From assembly GCA_900546615.1 (NCBI GenBank), contig URDJ01000062.1, positions 1 through 11,848 on the forward strand: a stretch of DNA of 11,848 nucleotides. The letters run 5' to 3'. The translations under genes and the position numbers were made by a program. The stretch comes from an uncultured Eubacteriales bacterium (lineage in GTDB: Bacteria > Bacillota > Clostridia > Oscillospirales > Oscillospiraceae). Of this stretch, positions 2,607-10,819 are shown one piece after another. The notes beneath the pieces were generated by a model. It made no database searches. It worked only from the letters and a program-made list of their open reading frames with translations, and was not told the DNA's origin. The number at the start of each line of letters is the position of its first letter. Position 1 is the stretch's first letter.

Positions 2607-3920
2607 CTATGCCAGCGCCAGCGCCGGGCACTCTATGAGCTTCTTGAGCCTCTGCAGGAACTGCGCCGCCACCGAACCGTCCACGACCCTGTGGTCCGCC
2701 GTCAGTGAGAGGTTGAGTATGGGCCGCACGCAAATCTCGCCGTCCACGACCACCACCTTGTCCTCTATCGTGTTGACACCCAGAATGGCCACCTCGGGCT
2801 GGTTAATTATCGGCGTGAAGCTCTCTATGCCGTACATACCCAGGTTGGTTATCGTGAAGGTGCCGCCCTTGAGCCTGTCCATGGGCAGGCCGCCCGTGCG
2901 TGCGAGATTGGCCAGCTCCTTCACTTCGGCGGAGATCTCACGCAGGCTCTTCATGTCGGCGTCCGGCACGTTCGGCACGACAAGGCCGTTATCCAGCGCC
3001 ACGGCGACGCCGATGTTCACGTAGTTCTTGTAGATGATATTGTCCCCGTCCACAGAGCAGTTGAGCAGCGGGAACTCGCGCAGGGCCAGAGCCGTCAGCT
3101 TCACGAGGATGTCGGTGTAGCTGACCTTTATGTCCTCAGCCTTGAGCCTCTGCCGGAACTTAGCAAGCTCGGAGACGTCGCAGCCGAGGTTGAAGCTGAC
3201 GGTGGGGCTGGTCATGTGGCTGTTGTGCATATTCCTGGCTATGGCGCGGCGCATACCGGTCATGGGCTTGGTCTCCTCACGCGGCTGGGCTTCCGGCGCA
3301 GCGCCCCTGGATGCGGCGGCGAGGATGTCGGCGGCGAGGATGCGCCCGCCCTTGTGTGGGACGTCCTTCAGCTCGAGGCCGAGCTCGGCCGCGGCCTTGG
3401 CGGCGAGCGGGCTGGCCTTGGGGCCGGGCTCTGCGGGCGGCGGGGGCGGCGCAGCCTTGAACTTTTTGACGTCCTCCTCCGTTATCCTGCCGCCGGGGCC
3501 GGTGCCGGGCACCTCGGCCAGCTCCACGCCGAGCTCCCTTGCGAGCTTCTTGGCCGCAGGCGAGGCCACGACCCTGCCGGCGGGCGGCTTCGGCGCCGGG
3601 GCGGGCTTGGGCGCGGCCGCCTCAGGACCGGGCGCCGGCCCGGCCTCAGGCGCGCCGGGCAGGAGCGGGGAAATGTCCTCGCCCGCCTCACCTATGACGG
3701 CCACGCCGGCCAGGCAGGGTAGGGTCTCTCCCTCCTTCGCCAGTATCTTCAAAAGTGTGCCCGAGGCCGTGGCCTCTATGGTGTTCGTGAGCTTGTCGGT
3801 CTCGACCTCGAAGAGCGGCTCGCCTTCCCTGACGGCCTCGCCCTCGGCCTTGAGCCAGCGGCTGACCGCGCCCTCCGTCATCGTGAGGCCGAGCTTCGGC
3901 ATCACTACGAGTTTTGCCAT
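2607..3920 (-). CDS. acoC: Dihydrolipoamide acetyltransferase (E2) of acetoin dehydrogenase, two subunit-binding domains
   Basis: The E2 core transfers the acetyl group from lipoyl to CoA, giving acetyl-CoA. It has 437 residues. A lipoyl domain (1-80) carries K43 in TDKLTN. A Pro/Ala/Lys-rich flexible linker covers about 88-115. There are two peripheral-subunit-binding domains: residues 117-153 (ASPAAKKLARELGVEL, then GTGPGGRITEEDV) and 168-203 (ASPLAAKAAAELGLEL, then KGGRILAADIL). The catalytic acetyltransferase domain runs from about 215 to the end and contains the active-site H410 and D414 in DHRVVDGS. Most bacterial E2 proteins have a single subunit-binding domain. An AAGGAGGG site lies inside the 3' end of acoX, 7 bases from the ATG, and the ATG directly follows the acoX TAA with no gap. 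The general E2 assignment is certain; acetoin specificity rests on acoX and acoR nearby. Confidence 0.92.
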   Translation of the reverse strand: MAKLVVMPKLGLTMTEGAVSRWLKAEGEAVREGEPLFEVETDKLTNTIEATASGTLLKILAKEGETLPCLAGVAVIGEAGEDISPLLPGAPEAGPAPGPEAAAPKPAPAPKPPAGRVVASPAAKKLARELGVELAEVPGTGPGGRITEEDVKKFKAAPPPPPAEPGPKASPLAAKAAAELGLELKDVPHKGGRILAADILAAASRGAAPEAQPREETKPMTGMRRAIARNMHNSHMTSPTVSFNLGCDVSELAKFRQRLKAEDIKVSYTDILVKLTALALREFPLLNCSVDGDNIIYKNYVNIGVAVALDNGLVVPNVPDADMKSLREISAEVKELANLARTGGLPMDRLKGGTFTITNLGMYGIESFTPIINQPEVAILGVNTIEDKVVVVDGEICVRPILNLSLTADHRVVDGSVAAQFLQRLKKLIECPALALA

Positions 3921-4934
3921 TTAAGATCCCTCCTTCTTCTGCCGGAACATACCGAGCCTTACGGCCTCGCCGAGCGCGGCTCTGGGCAGCACCCGCCAGG
4001 GGCCGTTCCTGTGTACGCTGAAGCTGACCTCGTTGCCGGGGTCAACGCGCAGCTCGCGCTCGCCGTCCAGGGCGATCATGTGCCGCTGCGCGGCGGTGAA
4101 GCCAAACTCCTGGCCGAGCCTCAGCTCGTGGACGCCGGAGATGCGCACCTCGGTGAGCACGCCCGCGGCTATGGGCGCCACCACGCTGCCCGCGCCCCCG
4201 CCTCCGAGCTCGACAGCCAGGGCTCTGTCCTCCGTGTCCTCTACCTGTCCGCAGACACCTGCCACAGCGGAAAAACCTATCGTCGCCGGGTGGCAGCGCG
4301 AGGCCACTATCAGCCGCATCCGCTCCGCGTCCCAGATGGCCCTCGCGCCCGCGAAAAAGTCGTCGGAGACGACGGCGTCTATGAGCGCGATGTCGCGCAG
4401 CCGGCCGTTCACCCTGACCTCTATGCGCTTGTCGCGTATGCAGCAGGCATAGGGCTCTGGCATGAGCGCAGCCGAGGCTGCGGCCATGCCGGCCACCGTG
4501 CCCTCCATGAGCGTCGGGTAAACGTTGTTCGTACCGGTGGATACAGACAACAGCGGCACGCTGTCTATGCCCTTGGCCGCGGCGCGGCTCGTGCCGTCGC
4601 CGCCGAGGACTACCACGCAGCCGACCCCCATCTGCTCAAACATACGCGCCGCCCGAGTCGTGTCCTCCTGGGTCGCCTCGATCTCAAAGTCCAGCAGCCC
4701 GACCTCGGCCCTGAGCACGCCGTCGCTCTCGAGCCCCTCGCGCACCGCCCAGCCTATCATGAAGGTCTCGGGCATGAACAGTACACGCTCTATGCCCAGG
4801 CCCTGGGCCGCGAGCACTATCCGTTTGCAGATGTTCACCTTTTCGTTGTTGTCTATCGTCGTCGCATAGGAGACGAGGCGGCGGATGTCCTTGCCGGACG
4901 CGGGGTTGGCAATGACGCCGATGGTCCTTTTCAT
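3921..4934 (-). CDS. acoX: AcoX, NAD kinase-like protein of the acetoin operon
   Basis: A 337-residue member of the AcoX family, which has an ATP-NAD kinase/diacylglycerol kinase-like fold and is regularly encoded with acetoin dehydrogenase. Its biochemical role is not established, and it is not a subunit of the purified complexes as far as I know. Visible motifs are ANPASGKDIRRL (9-20), the nucleotide-binding GGDGTSR (111-117) and STGTNN (132-137), a layout shared with NAD kinases. The start is the ATG at 4934, placed 8 bases after GAGAGG; a GTG three codons upstream would overlap that site. It follows a hairpin terminator that separates it from acoB, and its TAA abuts the acoC ATG. Its position between E1 and E2 suggests a cofactor-related or housekeeping function for the complex. 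That last point is inference. Confidence 0.88.
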   Translation of the reverse strand: MKRTIGVIANPASGKDIRRLVSYATTIDNNEKVNICKRIVLAAQGLGIERVLFMPETFMIGWAVREGLESDGVLRAEVGLLDFEIEATQEDTTRAARMFEQMGVGCVVVLGGDGTSRAAAKGIDSVPLLSVSTGTNNVYPTLMEGTVAGMAAASAALMPEPYACCIRDKRIEVRVNGRLRDIALIDAVVSDDFFAGARAIWDAERMRLIVASRCHPATIGFSAVAGVCGQVEDTEDRALAVELGGGGAGSVVAPIAAGVLTEVRISGVHELRLGQEFGFTAAQRHMIALDGERELRVDPGNEVSFSVHRNGPWRVLPRAALGEAVRLGMFRQKKEGS

Positions 4935-4948
4935 ACGCAGCACCTCTC

Positions 4949-5002: not shown

Positions 5003-5971
5003 TTAGAACAGCTTCTTCGCCGCGACCAGGATGTCCTGGGCGTTGGGTATGTAGTACTGCTCAAGATTCGGGGCGAAGGGCACCGGTGTGTCCAGCGCTC
5101 CGATGCGGATTACGGGCGCGTCGAGGTAGTCGAAGAACTCCTCGCCGATTATCGCGCTTATCTCGCCGCCGTAGCCGCCGCGCTTGACCTCCTCGGTGAT
5201 GACGATGGCCTTGTGCGTCTTGGCGATGGTCTCGCCGATAAGCTCCTTGTCCAGCGGATATAGGCTGCGCAGGTCGATGACCTCGACGTCCACGCCCTCG
5301 CCGGCGAGCTTGTCGGCGGCCTCCAGCGCGTCGTATACCTGCTTGCCATATGTGATGATGGAGAGGTCGGAGCCGGGCCTCGCCACACGGCCCTTGCCCA
5401 GGGGGATGGGCTCGAGGCTCGTGACCTCACCCTTGACACCGAAGAGCGTTTTCTGCTCGAAGTACATAACGGGGTCCTCGTCGTCTATGGCCGCGAGCAT
5501 GAGGCCCAGGGCGTCCTGTGCGCAGGAGGGGTAGACGACCTTGAGGCCGGGGACGTGGGTCAGCCAGGCCTCGAGGCTCTGCGAGTGCTGCGCTGCGGCG
5601 CCCGTGCCCGCACCCGCGGGCAAGCGCACAACCATGGGCATGGAGATCTTGCCGCCGAACATATAGCGCATCTTCGCCGCCTGGTTCACGAGCTGGTCCA
5701 TACCGACCGTGAGGAAGTCGCAGAACATGAGCTCGGCTATGGGCCGCAGGCCCGTTGCCGCCGCGCCGACCGCGCAGCCTATGATGGCGCCCTCGGAGAT
5801 GGGCGTGTCCCGCACCCGCTCCGGGCCGAATTCGTCAAACATACCCGCAGAGACGCCAAAGCAGCCGCCGAAGGCGCCGACGTCCTCGCCGAACAGGACC
5901 ACGTTCGGGTTCTCGCGCATCCGGATGCTCATGCCCTCCCGGATGGCCTCACCGTAAGTCATCATCGTCAT
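5003..5971 (-). CDS. acoB: Acetoin dehydrogenase E1 component, beta subunit
   Basis: This is the beta half of the thiamine-diphosphate-dependent E1 heterotetramer, which cleaves acetoin and passes the acetyl group to E2-bound lipoate. At 322 residues it has the usual family length. The N-terminal pyrimidine-binding part has GED (28-30) and TPISEGAIIG with Glu60, the residue expected to activate the cofactor. The conserved loop AAQHSQSLEAW (His129) follows, as do KVVYPS and the transketolase C-terminal domain beginning near PLGKGRVARPGSDLSIITYG. The start ATG overlaps the acoA stop as ATGA, with a GAGGAGG site inside the acoA 3' end; M3 and M4 are possible alternative starts. Overlap with acoA implies translational coupling and equimolar subunits. 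The hairpin terminator lies just downstream. Confidence 0.93.
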   Translation of the reverse strand: MTMMTYGEAIREGMSIRMRENPNVVLFGEDVGAFGGCFGVSAGMFDEFGPERVRDTPISEGAIIGCAVGAAATGLRPIAELMFCDFLTVGMDQLVNQAAKMRYMFGGKISMPMVVRLPAGAGTGAAAQHSQSLEAWLTHVPGLKVVYPSCAQDALGLMLAAIDDEDPVMYFEQKTLFGVKGEVTSLEPIPLGKGRVARPGSDLSIITYGKQVYDALEAADKLAGEGVDVEVIDLRSLYPLDKELIGETIAKTHKAIVITEEVKRGGYGGEISAIIGEEFFDYLDAPVIRIGALDTPVPFAPNLEQYYIPNAQDILVAAKKLF

Positions 5972-6954
5972 CTCTCGCGCACCTCCTCAACTATGTCGGA
6001 ATAGACGTCCACGACCGCGCTCTCCAGGCTCGGTATGGGCTGGGCATCGGCAAAAGCGATGGCGTCCTCCACTTCTTTGGCCACCTGGGCGTCTATCGCT
6101 GCCACCTCGTCGGCGGAGCAGACGCCGTTGTCCACGAGGAAGGCCGCAAAGCGCGGCAGGGGGTCCTTTTCCATCCAGGAGGCCTGCTCCTCCTTGGGCT
6201 TGTAGGTCGCGGGGTCGCCCTCGAAGTGGCCGCGCTGGCGGTAGGTCTTGCACTCGAGCAGCGTCGGGCCCTTGCCGGCCCGCGCCCTTGCCACGGCCTC
6301 GGCGGCCGCCTCGTAGACGGCCAGGGGGTCGTTGCCGTCAACCGCGATGCCGGGGATGTTGTAGGCCGCGCCGCGGTCTGCTACGTCCTTTATGGCCTGG
6401 TGCCTGTCCTGGCTCATCGAAATGCCGTAGTGGTTGTTCTCGCATACGAAGATGATGGGCAGCTTCCAGATGGAGGCCATGTTGAGCGACTCGTGGAAGG
6501 TGCCCTGGTTCGTGGAGCCGTCACCGAAGAAGCAGACGCAGACCTGATCCGTGCCGCGTATCTTGGCGGAGAGGCCCGCGCCCGTGGAGATGCAGTGTCC
6601 CGCGCCGACGATGCCGTTGGCGCCGAGGATGCCCTTGTCCCTGTCCGCGATGTGCATGGAGCCGCCCTTGCCCTTGCAGTAGCCTGTCTCCCTGCCGAAG
6701 AGCTCAGCCATCATGAGGTTGAGGTCGCCGCCCTTGGCAATGATGTGGCCGTGGCCCCTGTGCGTGCTGGTGATGAAGTCGTCGTCGCGCAGGCATTCGC
6801 AGACGGCGGGCGCTATCGCCTCCTCGCCCAGGTACAGGTGGACGAAGCCGGGTATTTTGCCCTCCGCAAACAGCCGCGCAGCCGTGCTCTCGAAGTCCCG
6901 TATGCGGCGCATCTTCACATACATATCCTTCATTTGCTCTTTGCTGATCGCCAT
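5968..6954 (-). CDS. acoA: Acetoin dehydrogenase E1 component, alpha subunit
   Basis: This is the thiamine-diphosphate-binding alpha subunit of E1, 328 residues. The cofactor/Mg2+ signature starts at GDGSTNQG (144-151) and ends at ENN (172-174), the spacing expected for this motif. Other family landmarks are GFVHLYLGEEA (36-46), the active-site-loop histidines in STHRGHGHIIAKG (63-75) and GKGGSMHIAD (95-104). The substrate could in principle be another 2-oxo compound. The short AcoA-like length, acoX within the operon, lipoyl-E3 and adjacent acoR favour acetoin. An AAAGGAGG site lies 6 bases upstream of the ATG, and the preceding gene ends 12 bases away, so it is the second gene of the operon. 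Its stop overlaps the acoB start. Confidence 0.93.
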   Translation of the reverse strand: MAISKEQMKDMYVKMRRIRDFESTAARLFAEGKIPGFVHLYLGEEAIAPAVCECLRDDDFITSTHRGHGHIIAKGGDLNLMMAELFGRETGYCKGKGGSMHIADRDKGILGANGIVGAGHCISTGAGLSAKIRGTDQVCVCFFGDGSTNQGTFHESLNMASIWKLPIIFVCENNHYGISMSQDRHQAIKDVADRGAAYNIPGIAVDGNDPLAVYEAAAEAVARARAGKGPTLLECKTYRQRGHFEGDPATYKPKEEQASWMEKDPLPRFAAFLVDNGVCSADEVAAIDAQVAKEVEDAIAFADAQPIPSLESAVVDVYSDIVEEVRER

Positions 6955-6966
6955 TTTTGACCTCCT

Positions 6967-7326
6967 TTATTCAGTGATGAATACTTCAACGGCGGCCAGC
7001 GCCGCCTCGATGCTGCAGTCCCTGTCGCCGAAGGCCTCGATGCACAGCCCATCGACCGTGAGACCGCCCTTCACCGGCCTCACCTCGACCGTGCCGACGG
7101 GCAGCGCCGAGGCCACCTCGGCACAGTCCACCTCCTCCGGCCGCGAGACCGCCACCGTCGCCAGTATCCGCACCTGCCTCGTGAAGTCCGTCAGACCCAG
7201 CACCTCATCGAGCCCGCACAGGCAGCTGCGCGACACCGCATCCTTCACCGCCTTCTTCGCAGCCTTGGTGACATCCTGGCCATGAAAGTCCGTCCCCATC
7301 CCGAATTCAACGATGAATTTCTTCAA
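6967..7326 (-). CDS. Lin0512-family small protein, first gene of the aco operon
   Basis: A 119-residue soluble protein of unknown function. The first residues, KKFIVEFGMGTDFHGQDVTK, followed by AAKKAVKDAVSRSCLCGLDE, match my memory of the Lin0512 family (conserved hypotheticals of about 115 residues in bacteria and fungi). The start is the TTG at 7326. GGAGG at 7338-7334 lies 7 bases upstream, and the first family-like residue follows at once; an open frame extends 12 codons further upstream but would bury this site. Residues 10-20 (MGTDFHGQDVT) and 32-45 (SRSCLCGLDEVLGL) look the most conserved. There is no signal peptide or membrane segment. It is the promoter-proximal gene, about 34 bases downstream of the predicted transcript start and 12 bases ahead of acoA. 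A link to acetoin metabolism is inferred only from position. Confidence 0.75.
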   Translation of the reverse strand: MKKFIVEFGMGTDFHGQDVTKAAKKAVKDAVSRSCLCGLDEVLGLTDFTRQVRILATVAVSRPEEVDCAEVASALPVGTVEVRPVKGGLTVDGLCIEAFGDRDCSIEAALAAVEVFITE

Positions 7327-7366: not shown

Positions 7367-7395
7367 AGTATACACTACTGTCTCAATATTCTCAA
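7367..7395 (-). promoter_or_regulatory. Predicted sigma-A-type promoter of the aco operon
   Basis: On the minus strand, a -35 element TTGAGA (7395-7390) and a -10 element TATACT (7372-7367) are separated by exactly 17 bases. The predicted start is near 7360, giving a leader of about 34 bases before the Lin0512-like gene. It lies downstream of the acoR terminator, so the operon is transcribed separately. The -35 and the spacer are covered by a TTGAGAATATTGAGA motif, a natural place for a regulator to bind. This contrasts with the -24/-12 promoter expected for an AcoR-controlled operon. Confidence 0.65.
7381..7395 (-). promoter_or_regulatory. Operator-like motif over the aco -35 element
   Basis: TTGAGAATATTGAGA: two TTGAGA units nine bases apart, the first coinciding with the -35 box. 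Variants of the same TGAGAATATT core occur at 7474-7483, 7527-7537 and 10544-10553. Binding here could block or recruit RNA polymerase. The binding protein is unknown; AcoR is the obvious candidate. Confidence 0.4.
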
Positions 7396-7473: not shown

Positions 7474-7483
7474 TGAGAATAAT
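7474..7483 (+). promoter_or_regulatory. TGAGAATAAT motif copy
   Basis: TGAGAATAAT, one mismatch to the TGAGAATATT core, in opposite orientation to the copy over the aco -35 and about 80-90 bases upstream of it, just after the acoR terminator. The distance fits an upstream activator site. Confidence 0.3.
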
Positions 7484-7488
7484 GACAT

Positions 7489-7520
7489 AAAAAACGAGAC
7501 GAACCCCGGGAGTTCGTCTC
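7489..7520 (-). terminator. Rho-independent terminator of the lplA-acoR transcript
   Basis: On the minus strand, GAGACGAAC (7520-7512) pairs with GTTCGTCTC (7504-7496) around a 7-base loop, followed by one G and six Ts (7494-7489). It lies 44 bases after the acoR stop and separates acoR from the acetoin operon. Confidence 0.88.
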
Positions 7521-7526
7521 GTATTC

Positions 7527-7537
7527 TTGAGAATATT
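7527..7537 (+). promoter_or_regulatory. TTGAGAATATT motif copy, near-palindromic
   Basis: TTGAGAATATT sits inside the near-palindrome TATTCTTGAGAATA (7522-7535), between the acoR stop codon and its terminator. It is the inverted counterpart of the copy over the aco -35. It lies about 155 bases upstream of the -10, a distance typical of sites bound by enhancer-binding proteins. Confidence 0.4.
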
Positions 7538-7563
7538 ATCAATTTGTATCAAACAGCTGAGAA

Positions 7564-9480
7564 TTACCTCATACTTTTCACATCAATGCCGCAGCGCTTG
7601 ATTTTCCTGTATAGGGTCGCACGGCTCATGCCGAGGCGCCTGGCGGCGTCCTCAACGCTGCCGCCGGAGAGGGTGAGGGCGGAGAGCAGCTCGCCGGCCT
7701 CGCTGGCGGGCTCGGCGGGGGGCTTGGAGCTGGGGCAGAGGGAGAGCCTGAGGCTCTGCGCGTCGAGCAGGGCGCCGGTCGTGGAGTAGTAGGCGCGCTC
7801 GATGGTGTTCTGCAGCTCACGCACGTTGCCGGGCCAGTCGTATTCCATGAGCCCGGAGAGGAACTCCGGCGCCATGCTGCGCTCCGGCTCGGGCGACATC
7901 TTGTTGAGGCGCTCCAGGAAGTGCCCGGCGCACAGGCCGATGTCCCCGGGCCGCTCCCTGAGGGGCGGTATCTCGAGCTTGAGCACGTTGAGGCGGAAGT
8001 AGAGGTCCTGGCGGAAGCCTCCCTCGACGGCAAGCTGCTCCAGCTTGCGGTTGGTCGAGGCGATTATCCGGATGTCGAGGTCTATCTCCTGGCTGCCGCC
8101 GACCCTGGTTATCCTGTGGGTCTCAACGGCGCGCAGGAGCTTGGACTGGAACTCGATGGGCAGCTCGCCGATCTCGTCGAGGAAGAGGGTTCCGTGGTTG
8201 GCGAGCTCGAAGCGGCCGGGGTTGCCCTCGCCGGAATGGGCTCCGGGGAAGGTGCCTGCCTCGTAGCCGAAGAGCTCACGCTCGAGCAGGTCACGGGGGA
8301 TGGAGGCGCAGTTGATGGCGACAAAGGGGCCCTCAGAGCGGCTGCCCTCGTTGTGCATGGACTGGGCGAAGAGCTCCTTGCCGGTGCCGGACTCGCCCTC
8401 GATGAGTATGTTGCCGTCGTATTGGGCGTAGCGCCTCGCGAGGGCGATGGTCTTTTTCATCGCCGGGTCGCGGGTGGAGATGTCCTGGAAGGTGTAGATG
8501 GCCCGGTTTCCGCTGACCTTGTTCACGGAGTCGAGGAGGTGCTTTTGCTTTTTGAGCGTGACGCAGAGGGTGCGCACGTCGTAGTCCATGGAGGGGCTGA
8601 CAGAGGCAGAACAGTGCAGCAGGTCATCGCCGCTGATGAGCCTGGTGTCGTCGGAGAAGCAGCGGCTGCCCCGGCGCCAGTCCATGGCGTCCCAGCCGAT
8701 GTCGGGCATGAGCCTGCGGAAGTCGCGGCCCTTGAGCTCCTCGAGGCTGAGCCCAAGCAGCCTGCCGGCGGCGCTGTTCATCCAGATGGCCCTGTAGTCG
8801 TCCTGGCCGAGCAAGACGATGCCGTCGGCGCTGCCCTCGAGGGCGGCGCGCATGATCTCGGCGTTGTGCAGCAGCGAGAGCTTGCCCTCGATGCCGTAGA
8901 CGGCGGCGAGCACGACGGCCAGGGTGTGGTCGTGGACGCCGGAGGCGTCGCCGGACATATTGAAGCAGCCGATGACCTCGCCGTTGATGCCGTGTATGGG
9001 CGCCGCGGAGCAGGTCCAACTGTGGTGCGTGCGGCAGTAGTGCTCCGGCCCGACCATCTGTATGGGCGTGTCGCAGTCGAGGGCGACGCTTATGGCGTTC
9101 GTGCCCACGCTGAGGTTAGACCAGAGCGCCCCCGGGACAAAGCGCAGATCCTCGGTCCGCTCCATGATGGACTCGTCGCCCATGGTCTCGAGCACGTAGC
9201 CCGCGCTGTCGGTGAGCACCATGAGAAAGCCCGTGCGCCGGACGATGTCAAAGACGCTCTGCATGATCGGCAGGGCGATCTCCATGAGGGTGCTGTTGGC
9301 TTCCCTGATGGAGCGGAACACGGCGTCGTCCACCCTGCGGCCGATTCCGCCGTTGGGGTCCACCCCAGCCTCGCGGCATTTTCTCCAGCACTCGGCCACG
9401 GCGGGCTGCACGGAGCTGTCGAGCCTGCCCTCGTATACATAGGCAGCCCAGATCTCCTCAAGCCTTCTGAGATCCTTCAT
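7564..9480 (-). CDS. acoR: AcoR-like enhancer-binding regulator with altered GAFTGA loop
   Basis: A 638-residue transcriptional regulator of the AcoR/DhaR type. An N-terminal GAF-like sensor region (about 50-205, with the family-typical LSVGTNAI and HHSWTCSAAPI) precedes a PAS domain (about 207-265). The AAA+ domain (about 330-560) has Walker A GESGTGKE (362-369), Walker B GTLFLDE (430-436), a sensor region RIIASTN, the arginine-finger stretch FRQDLYFRL (489-497) and WPGNVREL. A Fis-type helix-turn-helix lies at 604-632. The ATPase looks intact, but the sigma-54-contact loop reads GTFPGA (409-414) instead of GAFTGA, with Pro replacing the key Thr. The ATG at 9480 lies inside the lplA 3' end, after a run of seven Gs that acts as a weak binding site; a TTG five codons upstream is less likely. 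It should control the downstream acetoin operon. Confidence 0.9.
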   Translation of the reverse strand: MKDLRRLEEIWAAYVYEGRLDSSVQPAVAECWRKCREAGVDPNGGIGRRVDDAVFRSIREANSTLMEIALPIMQSVFDIVRRTGFLMVLTDSAGYVLETMGDESIMERTEDLRFVPGALWSNLSVGTNAISVALDCDTPIQMVGPEHYCRTHHSWTCSAAPIHGINGEVIGCFNMSGDASGVHDHTLAVVLAAVYGIEGKLSLLHNAEIMRAALEGSADGIVLLGQDDYRAIWMNSAAGRLLGLSLEELKGRDFRRLMPDIGWDAMDWRRGSRCFSDDTRLISGDDLLHCSASVSPSMDYDVRTLCVTLKKQKHLLDSVNKVSGNRAIYTFQDISTRDPAMKKTIALARRYAQYDGNILIEGESGTGKELFAQSMHNEGSRSEGPFVAINCASIPRDLLERELFGYEAGTFPGAHSGEGNPGRFELANHGTLFLDEIGELPIEFQSKLLRAVETHRITRVGGSQEIDLDIRIIASTNRKLEQLAVEGGFRQDLYFRLNVLKLEIPPLRERPGDIGLCAGHFLERLNKMSPEPERSMAPEFLSGLMEYDWPGNVRELQNTIERAYYSTTGALLDAQSLRLSLCPSSKPPAEPASEAGELLSALTLSGGSVEDAARRLGMSRATLYRKIKRCGIDVKSMR

Positions 9481-10474
9481 TTTCAACCCCCCCAAATATG
9501 ATGAGCATGAGCTCCTCCGCGCCTATGCCTCCGAAAAACTCGTATAGCGGAAAGGCCCTCAGCCTCTCCGCGAACTCAGCCGGCTCAAAGCGGCAGCCCC
9601 TGAGGGCCTCACAGAGCTCCGAGCAGTCCCGCAGGGAGAGGAAGTCCCCGACGAAGGCCGCGGCCTCTATCTTGCCAGCAACGAGCTGGAGCTGCGCCTC
9701 TATACTTCCGGCGGGGAAGCGCCGGCGAGCGCGGAAGGAGAAATCCGGCGAGCGGCCCCGGTTCCAGTCCCAGCTGCGGTATTTTGCGTTCGCGAGCTCC
9801 TCGACCCGTGCCAGCTCCTCCTGCCCCAGGCTCTCGCACACGAGCCCGCCCTGCGCCAGCTGCGCGAGTATGGCACGCCGAAAACCGTGTACGTCCAAGT
9901 CCCCGCCGAGGAAGTCCCGAATGTTGCCCGTCCGGCTGCGCACGGATTTTGCGGCCTTGGATTCGAACTTGTCCGCCCTGGGTCTGAGCGCCGAGGCGAG
10001 GGCGTCCGCGTCCGTGTCGAACAGCAGCGTGCCGTGGTGGAGCACCCTGCCGCCACTGAGCCTCTGGGCGGTGCCGGAGACCTTCCGACCGTCAATGCAG
10101 ATGTCGTTCCTGCCGGAGAGCTCCGCCCTCAGCCCGAGCGAGCGTAGTGCGGAGCAGACGGGCCTCGCCAGCGCCTGCATACTCAGCTCCGCCGTGTTCC
10201 CGGCTTCGGTGATGAACGAGTAGTTGAGGTTCCCAAGGTCGTGGTAGACCGCGCCGCCGCCGGTCATGCGCCGGACGACGCGGATGCCGTGCGAGCTGAC
10301 ATAGGCCTCGTCAACCTCCTCGGAGACGTTCTGGTTGAGGCCTATTATCACCGAGCTCTCGTTCTGCCATAGGATGAGCCAGTCGCCATCCCTCTTGTTC
10401 TCGAGCACGTACTCTTCAAAGGCCAGGTTGAACTCCGGCTCGGTGCTTCCCGTTTCGAGGTAGTGCAGGGCCAT
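9458..10474 (-). CDS. lplA: Lipoate-protein ligase A
   Basis: This enzyme activates free lipoate with ATP and attaches it to lipoyl domains. The product has 338 residues, the usual length with the C-terminal accessory domain. The lipoate-binding signature RRMTGGGAVYHDLGNLNYSF starts at residue 68. GRNDICIDGRKVSGTAQ (121-137) contains the catalytic-type lysine K131, and HHGTLLFD follows at 146. The start is the ATG at 10474, 6 bases after GGAGG; the open frame extends far upstream but crosses the promoter and terminator and is not coding. The stop overlaps the acoR start by 23 bases, so the two genes form one operon. Its targets next door are K43 of AcoC and K43 of AcoL, so co-regulation makes sense. 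It could also serve other lipoylated proteins of the cell, such as GcvH. Confidence 0.92.
   Translation of the reverse strand: MALHYLETGSTEPEFNLAFEEYVLENKRDGDWLILWQNESSVIIGLNQNVSEEVDEAYVSSHGIRVVRRMTGGGAVYHDLGNLNYSFITEAGNTAELSMQALARPVCSALRSLGLRAELSGRNDICIDGRKVSGTAQRLSGGRVLHHGTLLFDTDADALASALRPRADKFESKAAKSVRSRTGNIRDFLGGDLDVHGFRRAILAQLAQGGLVCESLGQEELARVEELANAKYRSWDWNRGRSPDFSFRARRRFPAGSIEAQLQLVAGKIEAAAFVGDFLSLRDCSELCEALRGCRFEPAEFAERLRAFPLYEFFGGIGAEELMLIIFGGVENEGSQKA
9487..9493 (-). repeat. G7 run at the lplA/acoR overlap
   Basis: Seven consecutive Gs on the minus strand, 6 bases before the acoR ATG. They are the only Shine-Dalgarno-like sequence for acoR and also encode Gly-Gly near the end of LplA. 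Loss of one G would place lplA in the acoR frame. Confidence 0.6.
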
Positions 10475-10503
10475 GATGCGCCTCCGTCTCATGTGTTGAG
10501 AAA

Positions 10504-10532
10504 AGTATAGCAGATTTTTACGCGCAAGGCAA
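10504..10532 (-). promoter_or_regulatory. Predicted sigma-A-type promoter of lplA-acoR
   Basis: Minus strand TTGCCT (10532-10527), 17 bases, then TATACT (10509-10504). The same -10 hexamer and spacing occur at the aco promoter. The start is predicted near 10497, a leader of about 23 bases. The tandem TGAGAAT motifs lie immediately upstream of the -35. Confidence 0.6.
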
Positions 10533-10535
10533 GCG

Positions 10536-10553
10536 ATTCTCAAAATATTCTCA
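10536..10553 (-). promoter_or_regulatory. Tandem TGAGAAT operator-like motifs upstream of the lplA promoter
   Basis: On the minus strand TGAGAATATT is followed by TTGAGAAT, the TGAGAA units being 11 bases apart, one helical turn. They sit directly upstream of the -35, the usual place for an activator, and share the core found around the aco promoter. This suggests common control or autoregulation of lplA-acoR. Confidence 0.4.
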
Positions 10554-10612: not shown

Positions 10613-10819
10613 AAATTTCAGCAGGCCGAGCTGGCGGAGGATGAAGGGCGTGTTCTTGCTCGAGGAGCCGATTGCGAGCCTGAGGCCCATGCGGTTGTTG
10701 ATCTCGCAGCCGAAACAAACCCCCAAGCTGTCGGCCATCCACTTCCAGGCTAGGTAGTGTTACTCGTACGTAAAGCAGATAACGCCGTCCAGGTCAAAGA
10801 TAACAGCCTGATATCACAT
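10613..10819 (-). pseudogene. pgmB: Beta-phosphoglucomutase (HAD family) pseudogene
   Basis: One minus-strand frame reads YQAVIFDLDGVICFTYE, a TAA stop (10762-10760), then HYLAWKWMADSLGV, CEINNRM, and GLRLAIGSSSKNTPFILRQ. These are the start (DxD motif of HAD phosphatases), the cap start and the motif-II/core region of beta-phosphoglucomutase, which interconverts beta-glucose 1-phosphate and glucose 6-phosphate in maltose/trehalose use. About 75 residues of the cap are missing between NNRM and GLRLAIG, the C-terminal third is absent, and the codon after the ATG at 10819 is TGA. A GAGGA site still precedes that ATG. The gene is clearly dead. The large losses inferred against the family are from memory, while the stops are seen directly. 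Confidence 0.85.

Follow-up and report, generated by a model that had tools for sequence, protein, structure and literature searches.

The acoR locus and its regulator

The window, as we call the whole 11,848-nucleotide stretch analyzed here, comes from an uncultured Eubacteriales bacterium of the Oscillospiraceae (contig URDJ01000062.1) and carries on its minus strand the gene of an acoR-like regulator (7564-9480, ATG at 9480) followed by a dehydrogenase operon. The gene was assigned from PF00158, PF25601, PF02954 and PAS matches together with its operon context, and counts as AcoR-type because it lies beside an acoABXCL-type operon with lplA. Its product consists of an N-terminal sensor region, a PAS domain, a AAA+ sigma-54-activator domain and a Fis-type helix-turn-helix, an order that is presumably that of Bacillus and Clostridium AcoR. 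The L1 loop of the AAA+ domain reads GTFPGA where sigma-54 activators have GAFTGA, and a comparison of loops, promoters and genomes of relatives indicates that this AcoR is most likely sigma-54-independent.

All genes described here are on the minus strand. The lipoate-protein ligase gene lplA (9458-10474; TIGR00545, 360.6 bits) lies directly upstream of acoR and overlaps it. Downstream of acoR come a predicted intrinsic terminator (7494-7522; a 13-pair stem, then a T run) and the operon, which begins with a small Lin0512-family gene (6967-7326; TTG start; PF09585; TIGR02058 at 80.5 bits, over its cut-off). It continues with genes for a dehydrogenase E1 alpha subunit (acoA-like, 5968-6954; PF00676), an E1 beta subunit (acoB-like, 5003-5971; PF02779/PF02780), an NAD-kinase-like protein (acoX-like, 3921-4943; PF01513), an E2 acyltransferase (acoC-like, 2607-3920; PF00198) and an E3 dihydrolipoyl dehydrogenase with an N-terminal lipoyl domain (acoL-like, 909-2597; PF00364 and PF07992; TIGR01350). 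A DUF6506 gene (595-912; PF20116) comes last, as it does in many relatives. The curated models that match the operon's dehydrogenase best are of the pyruvate or 2-oxoglutarate dehydrogenase type; the name acetoin dehydrogenase is our assumption, taken from the gene set with its acoX-like gene.

The loop occupies 8239-8256 (codons GGC ACC TTC CCC GGA GCC), which corresponds to residues 409-414 when the methionine at 9480 is counted as residue 1. A first-pass annotation of this DNA had singled out the substitution, and both the codons and our alignments bear it out: phmmer, queried with the translation of 7567-9477 (without the first methionine), places GTFPGA directly under the GAFTGA of PDB entries 4l4u (NtrC family) and 1ojl (ZraR). 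The same annotation's statement that the remaining motifs look intact holds as well. Namely, Walker A (GESGTGKE, 8374-8397), Walker B (GTLFLDE, 8173-8193) and the arginine-finger stretch (FRQDLYFRL, 7990-8016) are all present in a domain that matches Sigma54_activat (PF00158) with 210.9 bits, and the Fis-type helix-turn-helix (7594-7701, residues 594-629, recognition helix SRATLYR) matches PF02954 (HTH_8) with 36.5 bits. AcoR therefore has the AAA+ domain of sigma-54-dependent activators and lacks their GAFTGA loop or a tolerated variant of it. It also scores below the cut-offs of the NCBIfam models for TyrR (237.1 bits, cut-off 576) and DhaR (334.9 bits, cut-off 551).

Loop, promoter and rpoN across relatives

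Deviant loops are widespread among the closest relatives of AcoR. The homologue search scored 7997 candidates, and among the best 120 listed, 64 have deviant loops (GALPGG, GADPKA, GAFIGA, GASPLGG and others) and 56 have FTGA-type loops. An alignment of the L1 loop in close homologs had been the check proposed with the original observation, and it strengthens it: 57 of the nearest 58 relatives in this set are deviant. Relatives at about 55-58% identity, such as those from Dysosmobacter, mostly have GAFTGA. A sequencing error or chance can be excluded as the source of GTFPGA, since the whole clade is deviant and since separate database entries, 87% and 85% identical to this protein, read GAFPGA.

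We measured the constraint on the loop in a non-redundant set, with proteins above 95% AAA+ identity removed and protein P0008 left out, which reduced 82 broken-loop proteins to 53 and 68 intact-loop proteins to 18. Here and in the tree the window is represented by P0001, the same protein with two residues different, both outside the loop. The loop stretch, 10-13 residues long, takes 51 different forms among the 53 broken-loop clade proteins, whereas all 18 intact-loop proteins share a single loop length. Mean entropy of the GTFPGA columns is 1.15 bits in the broken-loop set versus 0.08 in the intact-loop set, while for the whole AAA+ domain the values are 0.82 and 0.54 bits. The most variable six-residue window of the AAA+ domain in the broken-loop set, PGAHSG, starts in the loop, and FPGAHS is the window with the largest gain in variability over the intact-loop relatives. 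Position 4 of the loop is proline in 27 of the 53 and threonine in one. The ATP-handling residues are kept: all 53 have the Walker A lysine, 48 the Walker B glutamate and 52 the arginine finger. Judged from these alignments, the loop of the clade is nearly unconstrained and the residues that handle ATP are retained, the combination seen in TyrR-like sigma-70 regulators. In a quick tree of 64 proteins with the loop columns removed, the window falls within a 33-row clade (SH-aLRT 100) that has 32 broken loops and, in P0008, a sole intact-type one.

In the clade members P0007, P0016, P0019, P0038 and L011 the Walker B glutamate has become glycine, which hints at a loss of ATP hydrolysis there. 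Outside the 33-row clade, broken loops occur in L031, in the Coriobacteriales pair L044 and L045, and in L046, whose position in the tree is unsure because of its long branch. In the Coriobacteriales pair Walker A is altered and arginine-finger residues are missing as well, and the rpoN search described below gave no match in G039 and G040, the genomes of these two loci.

The promoter predicted for the window's operon is of the sigma-A class. TTGAGA (7395-7390), a 17-base spacer and TATACT (7372-7367) together span 7367-7395 on the minus strand and match 10 of 12 consensus positions (P 0.01 in 100 shuffles), and the layout recurs in 18 further broken-loop loci. No sigma-54 promoter was recognized upstream of the operon, where the best -24/-12 score was 11.0 of 14.5 (P 0.54 in shuffles), and a -24/-12 scan of the whole window gave one weak match, inside acoR, at a chance expectation of 5.3.

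We identified 57 loci by using an alignment of the N-terminal region as query against genome contigs. The promoter comparison used 32 of these plus the window, 21 broken-loop and 12 intact-loop loci in all; the 25 left out were near-copies of L013, had no E1 alpha match nearby or, in L055, had a distant layout. In L028, L032 and L033 the region read was the divergent gap, and elsewhere that from acoR to E1 alpha. All loci were scored alike, with 100 shuffles each; a -24/-12 match had to reach 12.5 of 14.5, and a sigma-A match 10 of 12 at a spacer of 17 bases. A -24/-12 match was found at 9 of 12 intact-loop loci (perfect in L010, L017, L021, L041 and L042) versus none of the 21 broken-loop loci, and a sigma-A match at 19 of 21 broken-loop loci versus none of the 12 intact-loop loci (Fisher P 6e-6 and 3e-7, respectively, with kinship ignored). 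The broken-loop loci without a -24/-12 match include L004, L006, L011, L024, L027, L028 and L043, all from genomes that carry rpoN. Across these loci the predicted promoter class differs together with the state of the loop, and the order of acoR and then the operon, often with lplA in front, is common to both groups.

Of the 19 predicted broken-loop promoters, 18 have TTGAGA as their -35 box, L024 has TTGATA, and none has TTGACA. When 49 loci (1.61 million strand-bases) were scanned for TTGAGA-N17-TATAAT, allowing at most one mismatch among the six positions of the second box, 23 occurrences were found. Eighteen of these occurrences are at the place of the operon promoter beside a broken-loop acoR (downstream of it or, in L028, divergent, and with L012 a near-copy of L013), two lie just upstream of acoR (L002:3088 and L003:9826), and three are elsewhere (L052, L053 and L057).

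We then compared these features with the presence of rpoN, searched for with the Sigma54_DBD profile in 43 genomes reached via the loci. Matches over the cut-off were obtained in 23 of the 43, including short weak ones in G011 and G043. Full-length rpoN was found in 8 of 20 broken-loop genomes versus 12 of 13 intact-loop genomes (Fisher P 0.004). It had been proposed to check whether GTFPGA co-occurs with the absence of rpoN; this applies to the 12 broken-loop genomes that gave no match and fails for the eight that keep the gene, and a strict coupling between the two losses is rejected. The control gene rpoB was found in 37 of 43 genomes, among them all 12 rpoN-negative broken-loop ones, although as a fragment in G002 and G005. 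A filter for at least 90% completeness returned G003 (assumed), G006, G008, G017, G021, G023 and G024, and rpoN is absent from four of these seven. This search covered 399 genomes of the family to which G003 belongs, and its seven carriers were all already among the sampled genomes. Because the distribution of rpoN is mixed, the association of loop and promoter is tighter than that of either with rpoN.

Strong activator-domain matches (E below 1e-30) were collected in 27 of the 43 genomes. Ten of the 12 rpoN-negative broken-loop genomes have a single such match listed, and six genomes with rpoN and a broken loop (G004, G021, G024, G025, G038 and G041) have other activators with GAFTGA, GAFTGS or GSFTGS; the regular expression recognized no loop in three regions (L068, L072 and L073). 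Ten drafts share near-identical acoR loci with GAFPGRA (L012-L016, L018-L020, L047 and L048), probably one contig binned repeatedly. Where proteins and promoters were counted, L012 or L013 represents them; for rpoN their ten genomes form a group of their own, one of which (G018) has a full-length match.

Predicted operators and modes of control

Short repeats in the gap between acoR and the operon suggest where the regulator might bind. In the window we predict a half-site TGAGAA inside the -35 box of the operon promoter (7389-7394), a second, TGAGAC, 9 bases past it within the spacer (7380-7385), and three upstream half-sites TTCTCA at 7474-7479, 7528-7533 and 7558-7563 (-84, -138 and -168 from the start of the -35 box), all on the minus strand. 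The motif TGAGA(A/C/T) and its complement was picked by eye from the same sequences, and region lengths were set by hand. With the strongest terminator hairpin of each gap masked, the 21 broken-loop gaps contain 95 half-sites versus 14.5 expected (P ≤0.05 in 20 of 21) and the 12 intact-loop gaps 39 versus 6.1 (P ≤0.05 in 8 of 12); these counts supersede the unmasked ones, which include terminator arms (131 versus 16.2 and 47 versus 6.3).

The half-sites are placed differently in the two groups. At the nine intact-loop loci with a recognized -24/-12 promoter, 28 half-sites fall outside stems; 19 of them are found 140-210 bases upstream of the promoter, as enhancer sites would be, and none is nearer than 52 bases. 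Of the 19 broken-loop loci with a sigma-A promoter, 18 carry a half-site within the -35 box. Ten (L001-L009 and L043) have another promoter-proximal half-site 21 bases upstream of that one, and seven, the window included, have one in the spacer. In nine loci, with terminator arms excluded, the distances from upstream half-sites to the one at -35 keep helical phase (R 0.75 at 10.5 bases, P 0.0004); these nine were hand-picked for their dissimilar promoter regions, which align at 45-55% compared with 45-48% for shuffled sequence.

Taken together, these comparisons favor the first of two explanations offered in the first-pass annotation, that AcoR acts without sigma-54, given the decay of the loop, the sigma-A rather than -24/-12 promoters and rpoN in only a minority of the broken-loop genomes; the second, a little-known but working loop variant, fares poorly (see below). 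We consider it probable, with moderate confidence, that AcoR of this clade, its sigma-54 loop decayed, controls the acetoin-dehydrogenase-like operon at the predicted sigma-A promoter as a TyrR-like repressor acting at the -35 box. AcoR would bind TGAGAA/TTCTCA, its AAA+ ring would assemble in an ATP-dependent manner on the upstream and promoter sites and would no longer remodel sigma-54, and AcoR at the -35 box would repress transcription by sigma-A polymerase until an inducer, perhaps acetoin, relieves it. We prefer repression because the operon promoter is near consensus, because the window's two promoter-proximal half-sites fall within the core promoter, and because TyrR provides a precedent.

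A number of observations weigh against this proposal. Eight of the 20 broken-loop genomes keep rpoN, and two of them, G006 and G010, have no further strong activator-domain match listed. Conversely, G036 has an intact loop and a perfect -24/-12 operon site yet no rpoN match, so the absence of rpoN from a draft genome is no proof of its loss. The tree places P0008, with its GSFTGA loop, as the window's sister; in blocks of 40 residues it is 75-98% identical to the window up to column 360 and 65% or less identical beyond it, loop included, so P0008 may be an assembly chimera or a true domain swap. No clear sigma-A promoter was recognized at the broken-loop loci L031 and L045, nor a clear -24/-12 promoter at the intact-loop loci L022, L032 and L033, and the sigma-A match of L011 reaches only P 0.07. 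The enrichment of half-sites is no independent test, because the motif was defined on these very sequences, and outside terminators it is absent at P 0.05 from L010, L029, L041 and L056 (intact) and from L031 (broken). That an upstream half-site lies at a constant 126 bases from the -35 one proved weaker after terminator masking than before: a half-site at -126 occurs at 16 of 19 loci and eight of the nine chosen, but ten of the 16 are acoR terminator arms, and without such arms it remains at six of 19 loci, six of the nine chosen (common-distance P 0.005), and is absent from the window. Finally, canonical AcoR is an activator, so repression demands an inverted response to the inducer, and sequence alone does not discriminate between repression and activation.

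The half-site motif is often part of the arms of the acoR terminator hairpin (L001-L009 and L043 among broken-loop loci and L041 among intact-loop ones). Since half-sites are built into these arms, operator and terminator may overlap.

The strongest competitor, possible though in our view doubtful, is that AcoR is a sigma-54-independent activator that recruits sigma-A RNA polymerase from half-sites near the -35 box and upstream, in the manner of a class II activator (compare the reported action of NtrC of Rhodobacter capsulatus at sigma-70 promoters). Activation is the ancestral role, constraint on the ATPase residues is compatible with ligand-driven assembly, and the half-site pair 21 bases apart at ten of the 19 loci, like the half-sites just upstream of the poor -35 box (TTGCCT) in front of lplA in the window, suits such a protein. 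However, an operon promoter with 10-11 of 12 consensus positions and an optimal spacer should need little help, and the spacer half-site of seven of the 19 loci lies within the polymerase footprint.

That GTFPGA is instead a functional variant of the sigma-54 contact loop, with the operon still sigma-54-dependent, is very improbable. Passages of a study of Clostridiales count 100 variants, such as GSFTGA, among 490 activators as compatible (PMC6615313), and rpoN is kept in part of the broken-loop genomes. The loops of this clade, however, vary in length and share little, and the lack of -24/-12 matches at broken-loop loci extends to the genomes that do carry rpoN. We give just as little credence to a decaying AcoR with regulation lost and the operon constitutive from its sigma-A promoter, as the five Walker B glycines among 53 clade proteins and the further losses in the distant L044 and L045 might suggest, because reading frames are intact, ATPase residues in the main clade and the layout are conserved, and half-sites are six times commoner than expected outside terminators and in phase with the -35 site.

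A more specific version of the repressor proposal is that former enhancers have become a looped operator: AcoR on the old upstream sites and on a new -35 site, whole helical turns apart, would use its ATP-driven ring to close a DNA loop over the sigma-A promoter. We regard this as unlikely on present evidence and offer it tentatively. If it were true, the operon would have kept its regulator but changed both its promoter class and the logic of its control, before rpoN was lost in many lineages.

Known regulators and neighboring features

The first-pass annotation had likened AcoR to TyrR, and the likeness holds in that the loop is lost and the ATP site kept. According to passages of two TyrR papers, enterobacterial TyrR has likewise lost GAFTGA from a sigma-54-activator fold while keeping the ATP-binding core, and its targets are sigma-70-type promoters with boxes overlapping the -35 region, the layout predicted here (PMC1173090, PMC4374768). 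TyrR boxes over the -35 region repress tyrP and aroG (passages of PMC4374768), and the protein has been proposed to derive from PhhR, a sigma-54 regulator (passages of PMC1173090). TyrR differs in that its cofactors are aromatic amino acids and its targets are aromatic amino acid genes, whereas the operon here is a catabolic one of the 2-oxo-acid-dehydrogenase type in Clostridia. Unlike TyrR, clade AcoR has another sensor region, and its nearest intact-loop kin are AcoR-type. Bacillus and Clostridium AcoR is likewise encoded beside an acoABCL-type operon, but it is placed under sigma-54, with AcoR part of the Clostridium sigma-54 regulon in passages of the Clostridiales study (PMC6615313), while the window's AcoR has neither a GAFTGA loop nor a -24/-12 promoter.

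Activator relatives that lack GAFTGA and use sigma-70 are already known, and the AcoR of this clade probably adds a variant to them. TyrR, DhaR and HupR, with VpsR as a probable member, are named in passages of Francke et al. 2011 (PMC3162934), and NtrC of Caulobacter and Rhodobacter, without GAFTGA and acting at sigma-70 promoters, in passages of PMC10274813. Like clade AcoR, these NtrC proteins, Vibrio VpsR and E. coli DhaR are activator relatives without GAFTGA, and for them action with sigma-70 is shown or thought to occur in the passages of both sources (PMC10274813, PMC3162934). The Caulobacter and Rhodobacter NtrC proteins are response regulators with a block-deleted loop, whereas clade AcoR is a one-component protein with a substituted, variable loop. 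Passages of Francke et al. 2011 describe about 110 deviant activators with a preference for proline at loop position 4, shared by clade AcoR, and suggest sigma-70 dependence for deviants in two organisms without sigma-54; no promoter or clade analysis of the deviant set was found in these passages (PMC3162934). No title among the literature matches listed concerned a loop-lost AcoR in Oscillospiraceae or their kin, subscription papers lying mostly outside the scope of the search, and nothing was found on MimR with sigma54 or on the combination of AcoR, sigma-70 and acetoin dehydrogenase.

The clade thus offers a traceable case of an enhancer-type regulator leaving sigma-54, in which loop, promoter and operator position co-vary in one gene neighborhood and intact-loop sisters are available for comparison. 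It raises the question of why an AAA+ ATPase is retained after sigma-54 has ceased to be its target. Furthermore, the public name 'sigma-54-dependent Fis family transcriptional regulator', carried by P0013, P0021, P0029 and P0030, is likely wrong for this clade.

A second promoter is predicted in front of lplA and acoR, in a region spanning 10486-10553 of the minus strand. Its boxes, TTGCCT-N17-TATACT with a TG before the second box, extend over 10532-10504, and four half-sites surround it: TGAGAA at 10553 and at 10542, TTCTCA at 10502-10497 and TGAGAC at 10491-10486. This arrangement suggests that AcoR may regulate its own synthesis and that the lipoate ligase belongs to its regulon.

The Lin0512-family gene also heads the operon in many relatives. 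In L013, L025, L027 and L030 the gap between acoR and E1 alpha, at 309-447 bases, seems too short for it. Most other gaps are roughly 600-730 bases, and those of L003, L004 and L043 measure 1573-1583 bases, about 900 extra. Directly upstream of lplA, at about 10760-10810 on the minus strand, a short frame, QAVIFDLDGVICFTYE, ends at a stop; it looks like the remnant of a HAD-type phosphatase gene.

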